From Cellulomonas sp. WB94 (GTDB lineage: Bacteria; Actinomycetota; Actinomycetes; Actinomycetales; Cellulomonadaceae): 64,000 nt of DNA. The first letter of the stretch is position 1. Each line of letters begins with the position of its first letter. The notes beneath the pieces were generated by a model, which worked only from the letters and a program-made list of their open reading frames with translations, was not told the DNA's origin and did no database searches. The position numbers were made by a program, and so were the translations under genes. The stretch lies in contig NZ_QEES01000002.1 of the NCBI RefSeq assembly GCF_003115775.1, positions 1,054,001-1,118,000 of the forward strand, given 5' to 3'. Positions 1,418-9,910 of this stretch are shown here, one piece after another.

Positions 1418-2716
1418 TCATTTCGCCAGGCAACCGGCGAGAGGATCGATGCGGAAGACCGTCATCATCCCTCCGAAGGTCGCGCCGTAGTTGGTGGCCT
1501 GCTGCAGGGCGTGGCTGTGGGCGATGTGGTAGTACTCGCCGCACTCGTTGTTCGACGTGATGGTCGGCGGCAACGCGTTCTTGGTGCCGAGGTACGGGCT
1601 CTCGCTGAACCACGTGTCCGTGCCCACGAGGAGCTGGTCGGTGATGGCCGGGATCTGCGTCGGGATCGGGTTGGTCGCGGCGTCCCACTGCTCGACGTCG
1701 CGCCAGTCCATGAGCGCGTCGACCGTCTGCCCGGGCTGGACGTCGAGGTCGAACTTCTCGTAGGACAGGTCCTGACCTGCCGGGCCCGCGAGCGTGCGGC
1801 CGTCCTTGTTGACGACGCGCTCGTCGCTGCCGTGCGGGTGGAACGGGTAGTTGACCGTGCCCGCGTTGAGGTAGCGGATGACGGCGGGCAGCGGGTTGCT
1901 CGTCGCGTCCCACTGACGGATGTGCACGAACGCGCCGTACGGCTGGTTCGGCAGCCAGGACGCGTAGTTCGGGGCGAGCGTGTCCGGCATGCTCCGGCCG
2001 TTGATCAGGTAGTACCGCGGGTGGAACGTCGCCCAGCGGACGGGCTGGGACCGCTCGACCGCCAGGTGCAGGTCGGGGTCGATCTCCGACAGCAGGAACA
2101 CGTACTCGTGCGCCGGGCTGAACACCGAGTCGGCGCGGTCGTTGACCTGGTCGGGGTGGCCGCTCGGCCGGACGACCAGTGCGCCGTACAGCCCCATCTG
2201 GAGCTGCTTGTTCGCGTCCGTGCCGCTCTCGTAGAGGTAGGTGCCCGGGCTGCCGGGCGTGAACGTGTAGGTCACCGAGCCGTTCCGGGCCTCGGCCCCT
2301 TGCACGAGCGACGTCAGCGAGCCACCCGGGTCGAGCTGGGGCTGGGCCGGGTTGCCGTTCGCCTTCACGTTCTTCTGGCCCGGGAAGACGATCGACGTGG
2401 CCTCGGGCAGGGTGTTGTGCAGGATCACGGTGACGGGCAGCCCGGCGGTCACGCAGAGCGTCGGCCCCGGGAGCTGGAAGCCGCGCGAGCTGTTGCTGTA
2501 GCTCCACATGTAGATCGAGTTGCCGTCGGGCGTCGAGATGTAGCCGTCCCGGGCGGTCAACGAGAACGTCTGCTGGGCGTTGCTGTCGCACGCCAGACCC
2601 TCGGACGTCGCGGCCTCGGCCGGGCGCAGCGTCGCGACGGATGCGGCCAGGGCCACCGCCAGGACCGTCGCGGCGACGGCGAGCCGTCGGGTGCTCACAC
2701 GCAGTGCGGGACTCAT
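1418..2716 (-). CDS. Multicopper-oxidase paralog B, carries only the second-domain trinuclear ligands
   Basis: Secreted protein of 432 residues with two cupredoxin domains and a Sec-type signal peptide (residues 1-36). The ATG at 2716 has GAGGAG six bases upstream. The first domain is degenerate (VFPGQ where HxHG is expected; YLYESG where HCH is expected). The second domain keeps H293-P-H295-G and H400-S-H402, the four histidines a type B two-domain laccase contributes from domain 2 to its type 2/3 copper cluster. The type 1 ligands are gone there: Tyr stands in front of PFHPHG, and Ser401 replaces Cys. In two-domain laccases the trinuclear site forms between domain 1 of one chain and domain 2 of the next, so this chain could pair with paralog C. 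It lies 22 bp after C and 9 bp before A, in one operon. Confidence 0.85.
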   Translation of the reverse strand: MSPALRVSTRRLAVAATVLAVALAASVATLRPAEAATSEGLACDSNAQQTFSLTARDGYISTPDGNSIYMWSYSNSSRGFQLPGPTLCVTAGLPVTVILHNTLPEATSIVFPGQKNVKANGNPAQPQLDPGGSLTSLVQGAEARNGSVTYTFTPGSPGTYLYESGTDANKQLQMGLYGALVVRPSGHPDQVNDRADSVFSPAHEYVFLLSEIDPDLHLAVERSQPVRWATFHPRYYLINGRSMPDTLAPNYASWLPNQPYGAFVHIRQWDATSNPLPAVIRYLNAGTVNYPFHPHGSDERVVNKDGRTLAGPAGQDLSYEKFDLDVQPGQTVDALMDWRDVEQWDAATNPIPTQIPAITDQLLVGTDTWFSESPYLGTKNALPPTITSNNECGEYYHIAHSHALQQATNYGATFGGMMTVFRIDPLAGCLAK

Positions 2717-2738
2717 GAGGTCTCCTCGGTCGCTGTCG

Positions 2739-4013
2739 TCACGCGTTCACGACGGTCTGGGGTCCGTAGGTGCCCGGCGGCCCGACGAGGATCTTCGTCA
2801 TCATGCCGCCGTAGCCGGCGCCGCCGCCGTTGTCGAGGTAGGAGTACTGCCGGTCGTACAGCAGGTACTCCCCCGGGCCGGGAGCGACGAAGATCACGTC
2901 GCGACTCTCCCCGGGGCCCACGTCGACGGAGCTGGTCGTCAGGTAGTTCGTGGTGCCGTCGCGGCCCTTGAGCAGGTTCGCGTCCTTGGCGACGACCTGC
3001 AGGTCGATGGCGTCGACCGACATCGCGTGGTTCTGGTAGCCCAGGTTGGACATCCGCAGCAGCACGCGCTCGCCCGCGTTGCACGTCACGAGCGACGAGA
3101 TCGGCTGGTACTGCAGGCGACCGGCCGCGCTCAGGTTCGGGTTCCCGTTGGGCTGGACCGTGTCCGGGTAGCCGCGCCCGTTGAGCAGCCAGAAGCTCGG
3201 GTCGTAGTCCGTCCAGTCGCTGACCTGGATGTGGGCGTCGCGGTAGTGCGCGGCCGACCACAGCTCGGTGAGCATGAACGTGAACTCGCGGTCATAGCGC
3301 GTCGAGCCGTCGCCGTCGTTGTAGGCGTACTTCGAGCCGACGGGGTCCGTGCCGACCGGCGTCAGGTTCTGCTTGGGCCGCACCAGGACCATGCCCGTCA
3401 TGCCCATCTGCACGTGCTCGACGTCCTCGAAGTGGCAGTGGTACATGTACGTCCCGGCGTCGTGCGGGCGGTAGAAGTAGGACAGGTCGCGGCCGACGGG
3501 GACCGCGAGGGAGAGCTCCGGGACGCCGTCGAACAGCGGGATCGCGTTGACGAAGCCGTGCCAGTGCAGGGTGTGCCCGTCGAAGAGGTCCGGTCGCTGC
3601 AGCAGCCCCAGGTTCGTCAGCGTGATCGTGATGTCGTCCTCCTCGTCGAACGCGAGGATCGGCGCGCTGATCTGCGCCTTGCCGCGCTGCGCGGCGATCT
3701 GGGTCGAGGTCATGCCCGTGACGTCGCGGAACCCGAACACGTAGGTGTCGAAGGGGTTCGGCGCGAGCGCGTCGGGGTAGAACGGCGGGTCCGCCGGTGC
3801 GCCCTGCGGCATCGAGACCCAGCCGTCCGTCCCCGCGAGGTGCAGCTGCTTCTGGGGGTGGGCCACGGCGGCCGCCGCCGCGCGACTGGGGGCCGCCGCC
3901 GCCCGCGGCGCGTCAAGGACCCGACCCCCGAACAGGGCGGCGCTGGCAAGACCGACGCCACCGAAGAGGACGGACCGGCGAGAGGGTCCCTGGGGCGAGG
4001 CATTGACGTTCAT
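2739..4013 (-). CDS. Multicopper-oxidase paralog C, carries type 1 and first-domain ligands
   Basis: Two-cupredoxin secreted protein, 424 residues from the ATG at 4013. That ATG has GGAG six bases upstream, while ATGs at 4019 and 4049 lack a spaced ribosome site. The N-terminus has SRRSVLFGG followed by a hydrophobic stretch and AAAAP, a Tat-like signal. Domain 1 has a complete ligand set: H147-T-L-H150-W-H152-G, then H192-C193-H194, H200 and M203/M205. This supplies a type 1 copper and four histidines for a type 2/3 cluster. Domain 2 has lost its ligands (NHAMSVDA; LLYDRQYS instead of HCH). That is the reverse of paralog B, so an intact laccase-like centre would need B and C together. First of the three paralogs after the hairpin at 4060-4097. 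Confidence 0.88.
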   Translation of the reverse strand: MNVNASPQGPSRRSVLFGGVGLASAALFGGRVLDAPRAAAAPSRAAAAAVAHPQKQLHLAGTDGWVSMPQGAPADPPFYPDALAPNPFDTYVFGFRDVTGMTSTQIAAQRGKAQISAPILAFDEEDDITITLTNLGLLQRPDLFDGHTLHWHGFVNAIPLFDGVPELSLAVPVGRDLSYFYRPHDAGTYMYHCHFEDVEHVQMGMTGMVLVRPKQNLTPVGTDPVGSKYAYNDGDGSTRYDREFTFMLTELWSAAHYRDAHIQVSDWTDYDPSFWLLNGRGYPDTVQPNGNPNLSAAGRLQYQPISSLVTCNAGERVLLRMSNLGYQNHAMSVDAIDLQVVAKDANLLKGRDGTTNYLTTSSVDVGPGESRDVIFVAPGPGEYLLYDRQYSYLDNGGGAGYGGMMTKILVGPPGTYGPQTVVNA

Positions 4014-4059
4014 GGTCATCTCCACGGTCGGAGCGGGCGGAGCAGGCACTGCGGGCGAA

Positions 4060-4100: not shown

Positions 4101-7100
4101 TCACGGGTACAGCTGGTCGGAGCCGGCGTCGTACTGGCCGGGCGTCCGGGACGGACGGGTCTGGCCGTCGATGTCGACGCGCGGTGCGGCGACGGCGTAG
4201 GTCCAGCCGAGGAAACCCGTGCCCCAGCGCACGGTCGTGCTGGCCAGGCCCCGTCCGACAGCGGGTGAGGTCGCGTCGCGCAGGTGGTAGTCGCCCAGCA
4301 GGCTCGGCGGCAGCAGCTGGGCCACGATCACGGCCTGCCGGAACGCCGGGTAGGTGCGCGACGCGAGGACGTTCACCGTCACGTCGTAGGGGGCTTTGAG
4401 CACGGGGTCGTCCGTGACCGTCGTGCTCGTCCCGCCGTCGGTCCCGGTCGTCGTCTGGATGACCGAGCCGATGGGCGAGAGCGTCCCGGGGAGGCCCGTC
4501 ACGCCCATGTCCCAGTTCTCGATCCCGGCGTCGGTGCCGTCGGGCAGCGTCCCGCCGATCCCGTAGACGTAGCCGCCGCTGAAGCTGCCGGCTCGGTTGT
4601 CCCAGAACACGTCGTCGAGGAGCGTCGGCTTGCTGAACTCGGTCGTGCCGAGGGTCGCCGACGCGGGGAACAGCGCCGCGGTGCGCAGCCGTGCCTGCAG
4701 CGGGTCGCTGTTGCCGCCCGTCGAGAGCCCGGCAGGTGCGGCGGCCCCGTCACTCGTCACGGCCGTGGCCGTCGTGAGGTTCTTGACCACGGTGCTGTCG
4801 ACGATGTTCACGAACGCCGCGTCGTCCAGGGCGATGCCGCCGCCCTCGTGCGCCGAGACGTTGTTCGCGATCGTGTCGTTGGTCAGCGTGATCGTCTCGG
4901 GCGTGAGGCGGGAGATGTGCGACCCGCTCGTCTGCAGGAGCCGGACCCCGCCGCCGTCATCGTTGGCAAGGTTCGTCTGGATGATGTTCGAGTCGATCGT
5001 CACCGGACCGGAGCCCTCGGAGAGCGCGGTGGGGTCGGCCGGCAGCTCGCCGGCGATCATGATGCCGCCGCCCTCGTCGTAGGACGCGTTGAACCAGATG
5101 CGGTTCTTGGTGATGCTGCCGCCGCGCGCGACCCCGTACACCAGCGAGCCGAGGTTCGACTGGTAGCCGAAGGCGCTGACACCGCCGCCGTACTCGGCGG
5201 AGAAGTTGCCGCAGATCGCGTTGCCGTCGACCTGGTAGCCGTCGGCGCCCGCGAACAGGCCGATCCCGCCCGCGAGATTGGTGCCTCCGTTGTCGCGGAC
5301 CTGGTTGTGCGCGAGCACGAACCCGTAGTTGCGGTTGTCACCCACGTACGGGGTGCCGACGCGCACGGCCCCGCCGTAGGAGCCGCCGTTGCCGCGGATG
5401 ACGTTGTCGGTCACCCGCATCCCGATGACCCCGGCGTGCACGTACACGCCGCCGCCCTGCGTCACGAGAGCGCCTGCGGCGCCGTACGGCGTCTTGATGC
5501 CGCCCGTGATGAGGTTGACGTTGGCCGGGAAGTCCGACTGCGCGCCACCGGTCACCGTGAACCCATCGAGCGTCGTCGGGTAGGAGACCGGGACGACGCC
5601 GGCCAGCGCCGGGTCGTCGAGGACTGTGACCACGGCCGCGTCCGGCACCGCCGGGTTGCCCGAGTACCGCAGGCCGCCCAGCAGGGTCACCCACGCGAGA
5701 CCGCTGGGGTTGTCGGGGTTGAAGCCGGACCCGTCGATGATCGAGCCACGGACGAACGAGCTGTCGGGACGGAAACCGCCCGGGCCGACGCCCTGGATGC
5801 GCACCTGGTGGTGCACGATCACGTTCTCGGTGTACTCACCCTGCGGGTTGGCCGAGGACTGCGCGCCGGGCCACACCACGACCAGCCAGTACGGCTGAGT
5901 CCGGGTCGGCCGGGCCGCCTCGAGGGCTGCCTGGATGGTCGAGAACTGCTTGCCGGGCCCCACCTCGGCGAGCCGCGGCGTCGTGGCCGACCTGCCGACC
6001 GTGGTGCTGCTCGACGCCCCGATCGCCTGGATGGTGATCCCGTTGTAGGTGGACAGGCCGTCCGCCGCGGTCAGGCTCAGCGTGAGCGCGCCGGTCGAGC
6101 CGGCCGGAACCCTGAACGTGATGGTCCCGTCGGTCCAGCTCGTCGTGGGCACCGCGGTGCCGTTGAGGCTCAGCGTCCCGGCGGCCGTCCCGAAGCCGAA
6201 GCCCGTGACGGTCACGACCCGGGTGTCGGCCGGGGTGCCTTGCCGGATGTACGGGCGGTCGACCGCGAGGAGCTGCGGCGACGCCGTGCCGAGGTCGCAG
6301 ACCAGCGGGTTCGCGGTCGTCGTGTCCGGCGCGAGCACCGTCGCGGCGACCTGGGTCGGCGCCTCGTCGGTCACCGTGTACAGACCGGGCCACGCCTGGA
6401 AGTTGGTCGCGATGGTTCGGAACCGCGGGTTGTAGTCGGAGTTGAGTGCACCAGGCTGACCCGGGTCGTTGCCCACGAAGCGATACATGTTGGGGCACGG
6501 GCCGGCCGGGACCGGGCAGTTGAACGTGTCCGTCGAGGGCTCGAGCGCCTCGTACAGCCCGTTGAAGTCGGTGTGCGTCGTGTCGACGAGCCGACCGGAC
6601 CAGTCGTAGAGGCCGACCGGCACGAACGGCAGGCCCTGCGCCTCGCCGTAGTTGACGCTGCGCTTGTCGAGGGTCAGGCCCAGGTCGTTCAGCGTCAGGC
6701 CCCAGAAGTGCGTCGGGAGGGGCACGTCGGTGAAGAGGTTGAAGTTGGGCGCCGTCGCCTGACCGGAGCGCACCGTGACGAGCTTGTCGATGCACAGCGG
6801 CCGCTCGAGACCCTGGAACGGGCTGCCGCCCGCGGCCAGGAACGCGGAGTTGGTCACGGTGACCGTGTGCAGGTCGCCCGCGCAGGCCGAGATGATGCCA
6901 GCTTGCTGGGACGGTGGCTGCGAGGGCGGCGTGGGAGTACCGAGCGGCGGGCCGGACGGGTCCGCCGCGATTGCCGGGGTGGCCGGTGGGTAGTTCTCCT
7001 GCGGGAGGTAGGTGTCCCCGTCGAAGACGTTGACGTCCTCCTCGCGCGTCACCTTGTACATCGGCTTGCCGTCGACCGGGTCGGTCGGGATGTCGACCGA

Positions 7101-9548
7101 GACGATGTAGTCGAGCGGACGCAGGTCCTGCTCCTCGCCGGCGGGCAGTGGGGCGTACAGGTCGAGACCGGCCGGGTTGTGCACCGTGTCCGTCGCGGGC
7201 CACTGGTTGAGCTTCGAGGTCGTGAAGCCGTAGTTGCCGTTGACCGTCTGGCCGGCGGAGGTCGGGTCGGTCGTGTCGCTCGGGCCGATCGCGACGCCCA
7301 TCATGGGCGCCTCGACGCACAGAGTGTTCGCGGCTGCGCCGAAGTCCGGCAGTGCCTGCTGGTCGGTCAGCACATTGCCGTTGAACTGGCGGGCGGTGCA
7401 GCCGCGGGGTGCGGACCACTCCTCCGTCGTGACCGCGTCCTGCAGCTCGGGACCCTTGACGAGGGCGCCGCGGTGCGGGTCGGGGTTGGCGATGAGCGGG
7501 ACGGGCACCGGCGCTGCCGGGTCGGGCTGCACGAACGCCGGGTCCGGGATCTGCAGCGGGACGATCGCCTTGTCCTGGCGGCACGCGTTGGCCTTGTCGG
7601 CGTCCGTCGTGGCGGTGCAGGGAACGGTCGCGAACAGCCGCACCCCGACGCCCGGGATGCCGGGCTGGTAGGACTCGGAGACCGCGTCGGCGGGGTCGAG
7701 CTCGTTGCGGGTCGTGTCGTAGCTGACCGTGCCGACGATGCCGCCGTTGGTCCCGGCGTCGTACGGCTGGACGCCCCAGTCGATCTGGCCGCCGAGTCCG
7801 ATGATGGGCAGGACGCTCAGGTCGACGAGGCTGCCGAGCTTCGTGGTGGCCGTCGTCTCGTTCTCACCCTTGTAGGTGATGCCGGTGGTCTTGTACCGGG
7901 TGTTGAACGCCTCGAGCACGAGCCACTTGCCGAGGGGGTACACCTCGCGGATGTCGTACGCGCCGGTCGTGTCCGTCGTAGCGGTGTTGGTCGCCTGGTC
8001 CATCAGGGAGTTGTCGCGCTCGCGGACGGTGAGGGCGAAGAGCGGGACGCCCCGCTCTCCCGTGTCGAGCTTGCCGTTGCCGTTGGAGTCCACGAACACG
8101 TGCCCGTGCAGGTGCGTGAACCAGCCGACGAGCATCTTGTTGCCGACGTCGACGGTCTGGCCCCCGGACACCTCGACGTTGAAGCTCCACAGGATGTAGT
8201 CCTGGTCGTCGTCCCACACCGTCAGCTGGTAGGTGCCGTCCGGAACGCCCGTGATGTCGAACGAGCCGTTGTCGGCGCCGCGGCCGAGGTAGACCTCCGC
8301 GTCACCCGCGCCGAGGTCGGACAGCGCGACCCACGGCTGGCGGATCGGGCCGGCGAGCTTGGCCCCGGCCTGCCCGGTCTCGGGCACGACCTGCCCGTTC
8401 TGGCCGCCGATGTACGGCAGGCCGGCGACGACGACGCCCTTGATCTCTCCCGTCGGGGGCGTCGCGAGGACGGGTAGCGCGAGCGTCCGGACGAACCCGA
8501 ACTGGACCGACGGCACCAGCTCGGCACCCTTGGTCTGCTCGGTGTCGAACCCGGTCGCGCCCTCCTGGCTCCAGATGTCGTGGTCGTGACCGCCCTCGAG
8601 GGTCGTGGTCTGGACCCACTGGTACGTCTGCCCGGCCTGGACGGCCGGCGGCGTCACGGTCGCGGCGAACCGGTTCGGTCCCATGTTGGGGATGACGATC
8701 AGCCCCGTGCTGTCGCTCGTGCACGCACCGGTCGACCGTGTGGTGTCGACGATCGGGTGGTTGTTCGCATCGAACAGGATCGGCCCGGTGCCGTTGGCGT
8801 TCTGGTGCTGGTAGACGGTGCACAGGGCGTTGCCGTAGTAGTCGACGCTCACGGTGCCGAAGACGTCGCTGAGGTGTGCCGTGAAGCCCGCGAGCCCGCG
8901 CTCGGCGTCGACCTCGTACGTGCCGTCGACCGGTGCGTTGTCGTTGAAGACCGCGATGCGCAACGTCGTCAGCGGCAGCGGGGTCGGGTTCATCGAGACC
9001 GTGACCGGGGTGGTCACGCCAGGGGTCACCGTGAAGTGCTGGCCGTCGATCTTGAAGCTGTCGGAGATCACCGAGATGAGGTACTTGCCTGCCGGGAGGC
9101 CGTCGAGGGCCGTGGTCGTGCTCAGGTCCGTCGCGTCGCCCTGCGCCATGATCGGCGCGAGCCCCGACGTCTTGCGGATCGAGGGCCACTGGCAGGTGTC
9201 CGCCCACTGCGGGTCGGCGCTGCCGCCGATCGCGCGCGCCGGCAGGCACGAGGTCGTCCCCTGGTCGGCGATCGTGCCGGGGTTGCCCGTGTCGTCGGCG
9301 TTGATGATCCAGCGGTACGCCGTGACCGCATCCCCCTCGTGCACGAACCCTGGGCCGGTGTTGACCGATCGGGAGCTGCGCACCTGCAGCGTGATGCTGC
9401 CGGGTCCGGTCGCCGCTGCGGCAGCACGGACGGGCGCCGCGACGGCGGACGTCACCATCGACGCCGACGCCAGCGGGAACAGCGTGACTGCCATCGCGAC
9501 CGCGCAGACGGACCCGATCGTGCGCCTCAACGCCGCAGGACTCCGCAT
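4101..9548 (-). CDS. Giant secreted SdrD-like / IPT / beta-helix protein (1815 aa)
   Basis: The ATG at 9548 is chosen because GGAGGG sits four bases before it; an in-frame GTG at 9560 overlaps that site. Residues 1-40 form a signal peptide. Residues about 45-480 hold prealbumin/Cna-B-like repeats (for example LPAGKYLISVIS and VPDGTYQLTVWDD). Near 490 is an SdrD-type repeat (DSNGNGKLDTGERG) preceded by HLHGHVF. An IPT/TIG domain lies at about 1090-1185, and a right-handed beta-helix with many GG[AV]/NxI turns at about 1190-1665. There is no LPXTG or transmembrane anchor; the chain ends QLYP. The gene heads the operon with the three cupredoxin paralogs, so it may be a secreted scaffold or partner for that oxidase. 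Its biochemical role cannot be read from sequence. Confidence 0.85.
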   Translation of the reverse strand: MRSPAALRRTIGSVCAVAMAVTLFPLASASMVTSAVAAPVRAAAAATGPGSITLQVRSSRSVNTGPGFVHEGDAVTAYRWIINADDTGNPGTIADQGTTSCLPARAIGGSADPQWADTCQWPSIRKTSGLAPIMAQGDATDLSTTTALDGLPAGKYLISVISDSFKIDGQHFTVTPGVTTPVTVSMNPTPLPLTTLRIAVFNDNAPVDGTYEVDAERGLAGFTAHLSDVFGTVSVDYYGNALCTVYQHQNANGTGPILFDANNHPIVDTTRSTGACTSDSTGLIVIPNMGPNRFAATVTPPAVQAGQTYQWVQTTTLEGGHDHDIWSQEGATGFDTEQTKGAELVPSVQFGFVRTLALPVLATPPTGEIKGVVVAGLPYIGGQNGQVVPETGQAGAKLAGPIRQPWVALSDLGAGDAEVYLGRGADNGSFDITGVPDGTYQLTVWDDDQDYILWSFNVEVSGGQTVDVGNKMLVGWFTHLHGHVFVDSNGNGKLDTGERGVPLFALTVRERDNSLMDQATNTATTDTTGAYDIREVYPLGKWLVLEAFNTRYKTTGITYKGENETTATTKLGSLVDLSVLPIIGLGGQIDWGVQPYDAGTNGGIVGTVSYDTTRNELDPADAVSESYQPGIPGVGVRLFATVPCTATTDADKANACRQDKAIVPLQIPDPAFVQPDPAAPVPVPLIANPDPHRGALVKGPELQDAVTTEEWSAPRGCTARQFNGNVLTDQQALPDFGAAANTLCVEAPMMGVAIGPSDTTDPTSAGQTVNGNYGFTTSKLNQWPATDTVHNPAGLDLYAPLPAGEEQDLRPLDYIVSVDIPTDPVDGKPMYKVTREEDVNVFDGDTYLPQENYPPATPAIAADPSGPPLGTPTPPSQPPSQQAGIISACAGDLHTVTVTNSAFLAAGGSPFQGLERPLCIDKLVTVRSGQATAPNFNLFTDVPLPTHFWGLTLNDLGLTLDKRSVNYGEAQGLPFVPVGLYDWSGRLVDTTHTDFNGLYEALEPSTDTFNCPVPAGPCPNMYRFVGNDPGQPGALNSDYNPRFRTIATNFQAWPGLYTVTDEAPTQVAATVLAPDTTTANPLVCDLGTASPQLLAVDRPYIRQGTPADTRVVTVTGFGFGTAAGTLSLNGTAVPTTSWTDGTITFRVPAGSTGALTLSLTAADGLSTYNGITIQAIGASSSTTVGRSATTPRLAEVGPGKQFSTIQAALEAARPTRTQPYWLVVVWPGAQSSANPQGEYTENVIVHHQVRIQGVGPGGFRPDSSFVRGSIIDGSGFNPDNPSGLAWVTLLGGLRYSGNPAVPDAAVVTVLDDPALAGVVPVSYPTTLDGFTVTGGAQSDFPANVNLITGGIKTPYGAAGALVTQGGGVYVHAGVIGMRVTDNVIRGNGGSYGGAVRVGTPYVGDNRNYGFVLAHNQVRDNGGTNLAGGIGLFAGADGYQVDGNAICGNFSAEYGGGVSAFGYQSNLGSLVYGVARGGSITKNRIWFNASYDEGGGIMIAGELPADPTALSEGSGPVTIDSNIIQTNLANDDGGGVRLLQTSGSHISRLTPETITLTNDTIANNVSAHEGGGIALDDAAFVNIVDSTVVKNLTTATAVTSDGAAAPAGLSTGGNSDPLQARLRTAALFPASATLGTTEFSKPTLLDDVFWDNRAGSFSGGYVYGIGGTLPDGTDAGIENWDMGVTGLPGTLSPIGSVIQTTTGTDGGTSTTVTDDPVLKAPYDVTVNVLASRTYPAFRQAVIVAQLLPPSLLGDYHLRDATSPAVGRGLASTTVRWGTGFLGWTYAVAAPRVDIDGQTRPSRTPGQYDAGSDQLYP

Positions 9549-9910
9549 GATGCCCTCCACTCACGGGTGTGGGCCCCCGCCAGTCCGGGGTCCGCAGCTC
9601 ACTGTGGCGGTGCGCGAGGTCGCGATGTCCCGATCTGACCGATTCGTACCCCGAGCCTCACGGGCTCGTCATGTCGCTGAGCGGCTGTCGCCATCGCGCC
9701 GTCATCAGCGGCCACGCGGCCGTCATCCGGCGGTCATGAGCGCGCACCCTGCGGCCCGCCCACCAGCAGGTTCGCCTCGCGTTGCGGCTCATGCACGGCC
9801 GCAACGGCCTTTCGTCCCGTTCTGTGGCAGATGAGAACTTTTCACCCATACGGCTCCCGCGGTCGCGGCACATGGACCCGTATGTTCACGAAGGGGAGAG
9901 GGGTACCACG
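9549..9910. promoter_or_regulatory. Divergent control region with GTCAT repeats at ~11-bp steps
   Basis: This 362-bp spacer separates the giant-protein operon from the response-regulator gene. GTCAT occurs at 9668, 9701, 9722 and 9733, with intervals of 33, 21 and 11 bp, so all copies fall on one face of the helix. OmpR/PhoB-type regulators bind direct repeats with 11-bp spacing, so this is a plausible target of the adjacent regulator. An inverted repeat CATACGG (9847-9853) / CCGTATG (9878-9884) lies close to the response-regulator start. No small gene was found. Confidence 0.5.

Follow-up and report, generated by a model that had tools for sequence, protein, structure and literature searches.

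Multicopper oxidases are known as homotrimers, as three-domain monomers and as six-domain monomers. The blue copper oxidase of Nitrosomonas (NeBCO, PDB 3g5w) and mgLAC (PDB 2zwn) are homotrimers, in which both halves of the trinuclear site are present on every chain. In ceruloplasmin and MnxG, a single polypeptide with six cupredoxin domains holds one working trinuclear centre, the other sites having been lost. A different solution is found in POXA3, a fungal heterodimeric laccase whose small subunit is no cupredoxin and contributes no copper ligands. This laccase of Pleurotus is listed in PMC3129051. Bacterial six-domain oxidases have their T1 copper in domain 2, and domains 2 and 3 hold the cluster between them (PMC3600357). 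The Mnx complex of Bacillus (MnxE3F3G) is an operon-encoded, multi-protein copper oxidase located on spores (PMC5622069). In the standard scheme for two-domain enzymes, a T1 site in the N-terminal domain defines type C and a T1 site in the C-terminal domain defines type B (PMC13151041).

The gene cluster analysed here encodes three paralogues, which we call C, B and A, and a giant protein, BIG. It resembles NeBCO and mgLAC in the two-domain fold, the T1 set in domain 1, the positions of the trinuclear histidines and an expected interchain cluster. Unlike in these homotrimers, the two halves of the site are found on two paralogues, the third paralogue is empty, and a giant putative scaffold is added. 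With ceruloplasmin and MnxG the cluster shares six cupredoxin domains, a predicted single working trinuclear centre and the loss of the other sites; however, the domains are distributed over three polypeptides instead of one, and the T1 copper and the trinuclear cluster would sit elsewhere along them. Like Mnx, it appears to be a multi-protein, operon-encoded copper oxidase, but in Mnx every multicopper oxidase domain belongs to MnxG, and MnxE and MnxF are unlike any characterised protein. POXA3 provides the example of a laccase with a second, different subunit, yet it does not share its copper ligands with that subunit. Both chemistry and fold are familiar ones, of which the assembly would represent a new form: in agreement with the preliminary description of this locus, which took such an enzyme to be undescribed, we found in the open-licence literature no description of a multicopper oxidase with an active site divided between paralogues, or of this operon type.

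Results

The window is a stretch of 64,000 nucleotides from contig NZ_QEES01000002.1 of Cellulomonas sp. WB94. The four genes lie on its minus strand in the 5' to 3' order BIG, C, B, A, separated by small gaps and read in one direction. BIG (4101-9560), the first gene of the conserved cluster, encodes 1819 residues with SdrD_B and TIG domains and a C-terminal parallel beta-helix, and is most likely a secreted scaffold. C (2739-4013) encodes two cupredoxin domains behind a twin-arginine signal, and carries a T1 set and half of a trinuclear set, all in domain 1; the protein has 424 residues if the ATG at 4013 is used, and an alternative GTG start is possible at 4049. B (1418-2716; 432 residues) also has two cupredoxin domains, with its four trinuclear histidines all in domain 2. 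The N-terminal part of A, the third paralogue, occupies positions 1-1408, and the rest of the gene lies beyond the window. Completed from the genome (contig C2, about 1052262-1055408), A has 1048 residues, with two cupredoxin domains and then a long C-terminal extension that contains Ig-like domains. A CopC-CopD fusion gene is found downstream of A. Three more multicopper oxidase genes are present in the same genome, at C5:118593, C7:107644 and C2:1797425.

The copper ligands are divided between C and B. In domain 1 of C, the motif HTLHWHG (residues 147-153; 3555-3575, minus strand) aligns with PHTIHWHG of NeBCO and supplies H147 to the T1 site and H150 and H152 to the trinuclear site. It is followed by H192-C193-H194 (3432-3440), in which the T1 cysteine stands between two trinuclear histidines, and by a segment running from the T1 ligand H200 to M203 and M205 (3399-3416). 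In the profile alignment, mgLAC has Val at the position of M203 and Met at that of M205, and the axial T1 ligand of C is probably M205 rather than M203. Domain 2 of C has no copper ligands. In B, two trinuclear half-sites are found in domain 2, namely H293-P-H295 (1832-1840), aligned with HTH of NeBCO, and H400-S-H402 (1511-1519), aligned with HDH and with Ser in the place of the T1 cysteine. In contrast, domain 1 of B has SIVFPG (residues 108-113; 2378-2395) as the emptied counterpart of the HTLHWHG motif of C, and also reads YESGT instead of ligands. The preliminary description had given the ligand residues and the gene coordinates of C and B, and every one of them checks out; it had also called the two proteins complementary and A empty in its visible part, and we found that both domains of the full-length, 1048-residue A lack ligands as well. 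The 12 ligands of C and B match those of one type C two-domain oxidase, and thus the full set exists once, split over two chains.

Comparison with solved structures is consistent with this reading. In profile searches of the PDB, the top match for both C and B was NeBCO (3g5w), and the next was mgLAC (2zwn). The alignments place HTxHWHG and HCHFEDVEHVQMGM of C over HTIHWHG and HCHVNVNEHVTMRGM of NeBCO, and HPH and HSH of B over HTH and HDH. All 12 ligands pair with residues of 3g5w, and the opposite halves, domain 2 of C and domain 1 of B, have no histidines at the ligand positions. Modelled with AlphaFold2 (pLDDT 86), C and B each match 3g5w from end to end, with Z scores of 30.1 and 28.7, respectively, and are seen to have two cupredoxin domains per chain. 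The first account of the locus had assigned the proteins to type B. This label has to be corrected to type C (PMC13151041), as the T1 set sits in domain 1 of C and domain 2 of B has Ser or Asn in place of the Cys. Even so, C is the only one of the three with a T1 site in the N-terminal domain, which B and A lack, and no chain carries both trinuclear half-sites as a type C enzyme does: C is without the domain 2 half, B without the domain 1 half, and A without both.

An alignment of B was used to scan the genomes of about 85,000 prokaryote species, with the B domain-1 peptides TPDGNSI and PGTYLYES as patterns. Because these patterns lie in the ligand-free domain of B, ligand conservation is an independent result. 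The scan gave 80 loci from Actinomycetota, Chloroflexota, Bacillota, Acidobacteria, Verrucomicrobia and Pseudomonadota; two further loci from a genome search complete the analysed set, in which many loci come from metagenome-assembled genomes (MAGs). Among sequences long enough to judge, 77 of 80 C proteins retain all nine ligands, and 78 of 80 B proteins retain their four histidines. Position by position, H150 and H152 of C are each kept in 80 of 81 rows, H293 and H295 of B in 83/83 and 82/83, and H400 and H402 in all 81 rows that reach so far. The complementary sites in domain 2 of C and domain 1 of B are empty throughout, and the T1 cysteine position of B is occupied by Ser (60 loci) or Asn (18 loci). 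A is present in every locus whose contig allows it, and the order C, B, A on one strand is kept in 79 of the 79 loci with all three genes; since A was chosen as the nearest downstream homologue, its position, and not that of C, is partly set by construction. In all, the division of the ligands is preserved in more than 80 clusters from at least six phyla.

Exceptions are few. Locus L037 has one ligand change in C, and L070 is without the second methionine. In L083 (8465-12198), from a Chloroflexi MAG, C has lost H147, H150, H152, H194 and H200, and B has lost H295. This joint loss in C and B is what a shared site predicts, in the single case of one MAG; L083 is possibly a copper-free version, and no second, intact copy was seen in that MAG. 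C and B were each found in three of the 396 genomes of an Actinomycetota sample, the same three for both. A lone B or C, which the preliminary description regarded, if active, as evidence against its model, was found neither in the 12 cluster-bearing genomes nor in the 396 Actinomycetota genomes, and a search of viral contigs found no relatives. With regard to gene sizes, in a clade of Kribbella, Actinoplanes and Cellulomonas (L067, L069, L072, L076, L081 and L084), B has about 660-680 residues and A about 310-410, as if the C-terminal extension had shifted from A to B. Two clusters, L027 and L072, are present in Kribbella pratensis.

The system had been described as one of three proteins, and this view proved incomplete, as BIG is a fourth co-conserved member and, in some lineages, forms one chain with C or with A. 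Where the contig extends far enough, almost every cluster has a BIG homologue immediately 5' of C. A single open reading frame of 2201 residues covers both BIG and C in a MAG of the Verrucomicrobia (L099:3222-9824). In the Burkholderiales, Paraburkholderia and Cupriavidus metallidurans CH34 have C, B and then an A-BIG fusion of about 2,700 residues (L132:10272-21691 and L131:9879-21623); these clusters keep the ligand split, in Paraburkholderia all of the genes carry the label hypothetical protein, and the genome paper of C. metallidurans names no such oxidase. The existence of two different fusions, to C and to A, indicates that BIG is physically tied to the oxidase subunits. We also considered BIG as a copper protein and rejected this idea: an alignment of 27 homologues has no conserved His/Met cluster, and only four Cys and one His are conserved. 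As for other neighbours, a CopC-CopD fusion gene, associated with copper handling, is close to 45 clusters, on the downstream side of A (for example L006:9792-11993). A small, secreted-looking protein of 150-180 residues without a Pfam match is encoded after A in 14 loci. Some clusters of Chloroflexi and Cryobacterium have a subtilase (Peptidase_S8) 3' of A (L049:15354-17813 and L050:16754-19813), whose C-terminal part is similar to that of A.

The signals for export are unevenly distributed. An RRxF twin-arginine motif is found in C at 41 of 80 loci, in B at 1 of 82 and in A at 2 of 80. If these signals are read rightly, the twin-arginine signal on C implies that in those lineages the shared centre would form only after export. 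In Bacillota, C and B lack a hydrophobic leader, their first residues already belonging to the mature domain, and the same holds for the A proteins that were sampled. The Bacillota carriers are anaerobic spore formers, and the sequence CATAnnnT occurs 25-53 nucleotides upstream of BIG in five of eight cases, against an expected 0.8 (L086-L096). By analogy with MnxG, this gives a hint, and only a hint, that the Bacillota clusters may be under mother-cell sporulation control and their products located at the spore surface.

Regarding the history of the paralogues, a tree of 67 rows recovers A, B and C as one group each (support 95/87, 100/99 and 100/99, respectively). NeBCO and mgLAC fall nearest to C, with weak support, in this tree. 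Profile-profile comparisons relate B to A with an E value of 3e-70 and B to C with 5e-55, and A is homologous along both domains. Distances between subunits are correlated (r of 0.92 for C and B, 0.89 for B and A, and 0.83 for C and A), a pattern that shared descent would also give. Since A, B and C are each a single clade across phyla, the duplication and the ligand loss must be older than the spread over phyla. The interfaces that the preliminary description called decayed have indeed lost their ligands, but this loss is ancient and precedes, according to the tree, the dispersal of A, B and C. C, B and A probably arose from one type-C-like two-domain oxidase through two ancient duplications.

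Discussion

In this study, we analysed a conserved gene cluster whose products probably constitute an obligate hetero-oligomeric two-domain multicopper oxidase, formed by BIG, C, B and A, with one centre at the C-B interface and a large scaffold. That a single centre would be built from C and B is well supported by the conserved ligand split, the co-occurrence in the same genomes, the joint loss in L083 and the lack of lone B or C genes in the genomes searched. As in homotrimeric two-domain oxidases, the trinuclear cluster would be formed by domain 1 of one chain together with domain 2 of the adjacent chain, and only the interface of C domain 1 with B domain 2 would have retained its ligands. 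C would provide the T1 copper site (H147, C193, H200 and M205) together with H150, H152, H192 and H194, and B would provide H293, H295, H400 and H402. The T1 copper in C would take electrons from the substrate and relay them over the C193-H192/H194 link to the trinuclear cluster between C and B, the site where O2 would be reduced by the standard multicopper oxidase mechanism. The heterotrimer with a single centre proposed earlier is still the model we favour; it is supported as far as the complementary halves of C and B are concerned, whose split is conserved across phyla, and for A, we infer membership. Its homology and co-conservation make it plausible that A is a non-catalytic third member closing the ring. 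The same applies to the complex as such, to a 1:1:1 ratio of its members, and to its binding of copper, reduction of O2 and place of action. BIG may anchor or display the enzyme, which would be secreted and, in spore-forming Bacillota, probably placed on the spore surface. As to the substrate, one may guess by analogy at a metal, for instance Mn(II), or at a phenol. Some homologues occur in anaerobes (Desulfallas and Thermincola), where O2 reduction is less obvious.

Other explanations have to be weighed. One is an oxidase of the MnxG or ceruloplasmin type divided into three genes, which would also have six cupredoxin domains, a single working centre and lost sites elsewhere. We regard this as unlikely, because C, B and A are never fused to each other in the 82 loci or in the Burkholderiales, and the layout differs, with T1 in the first domain of C and its partner in the second domain of B. 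Moreover, the nearest solved relatives are type C two-domain enzymes, and NeBCO and mgLAC stand beside C, albeit weakly and in a tree without MnxG. It is distinctly unlikely, too, that C and B act apart, C as a T1 electron-transfer homotrimer and B with another metal at a site of its own, so that their histidines never meet. Such a reading could draw on the separate coding and export of C and B, as 41 of 80 C proteins and almost no B or A have the twin-arginine motif. However, the four extra histidines of C and the four of B, almost without variation, occupy exactly the positions that the trinuclear ligands have in 3g5w and 2zwn; one half would make no sense without the other, and C and B are always linked, with ligands lost in both in L083.

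An enzyme with the same fold and trimer logic is the copper nitrite reductase, in which case a mononuclear type 2 site would lie between C and B, and NirK chains are in fact close structural matches of both. Nevertheless, C reaches 38 bits with the curated NirK model TIGR02376, whose cut-off is 296, and HxxHxH and H-C-H in C together with two HxH pairs in B make up eight histidines, as in the oxidases, so this reading is very improbable. Finally, the missing T1 site in two of three paralogues could be viewed as decay of duplicated genes within one genome. This is hardly credible for a split that is strongly conserved in about 80 loci of six phyla, with each paralogue in one clade; conservation over phyla and single-clade paralogues rule out chance or local decay of the ligands.

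For the family as a whole, we lean towards a four-protein copper oxidase machine present in at least six phyla, in which two paralogues would build one site in trans, a third would be empty and a beta-helix protein would serve as scaffold. The family is widespread, rare within any one phylum, and called a hypothetical protein wherever we saw an annotation. One of its members belongs to Cupriavidus metallidurans CH34, which serves as a laboratory model. If the shared C-B centre is true, these proteins would represent the missing step from the symmetric two-domain trimer to the asymmetric six-domain chain, and the long-assumed path of triplication followed by loss of sites would become testable with living proteins.
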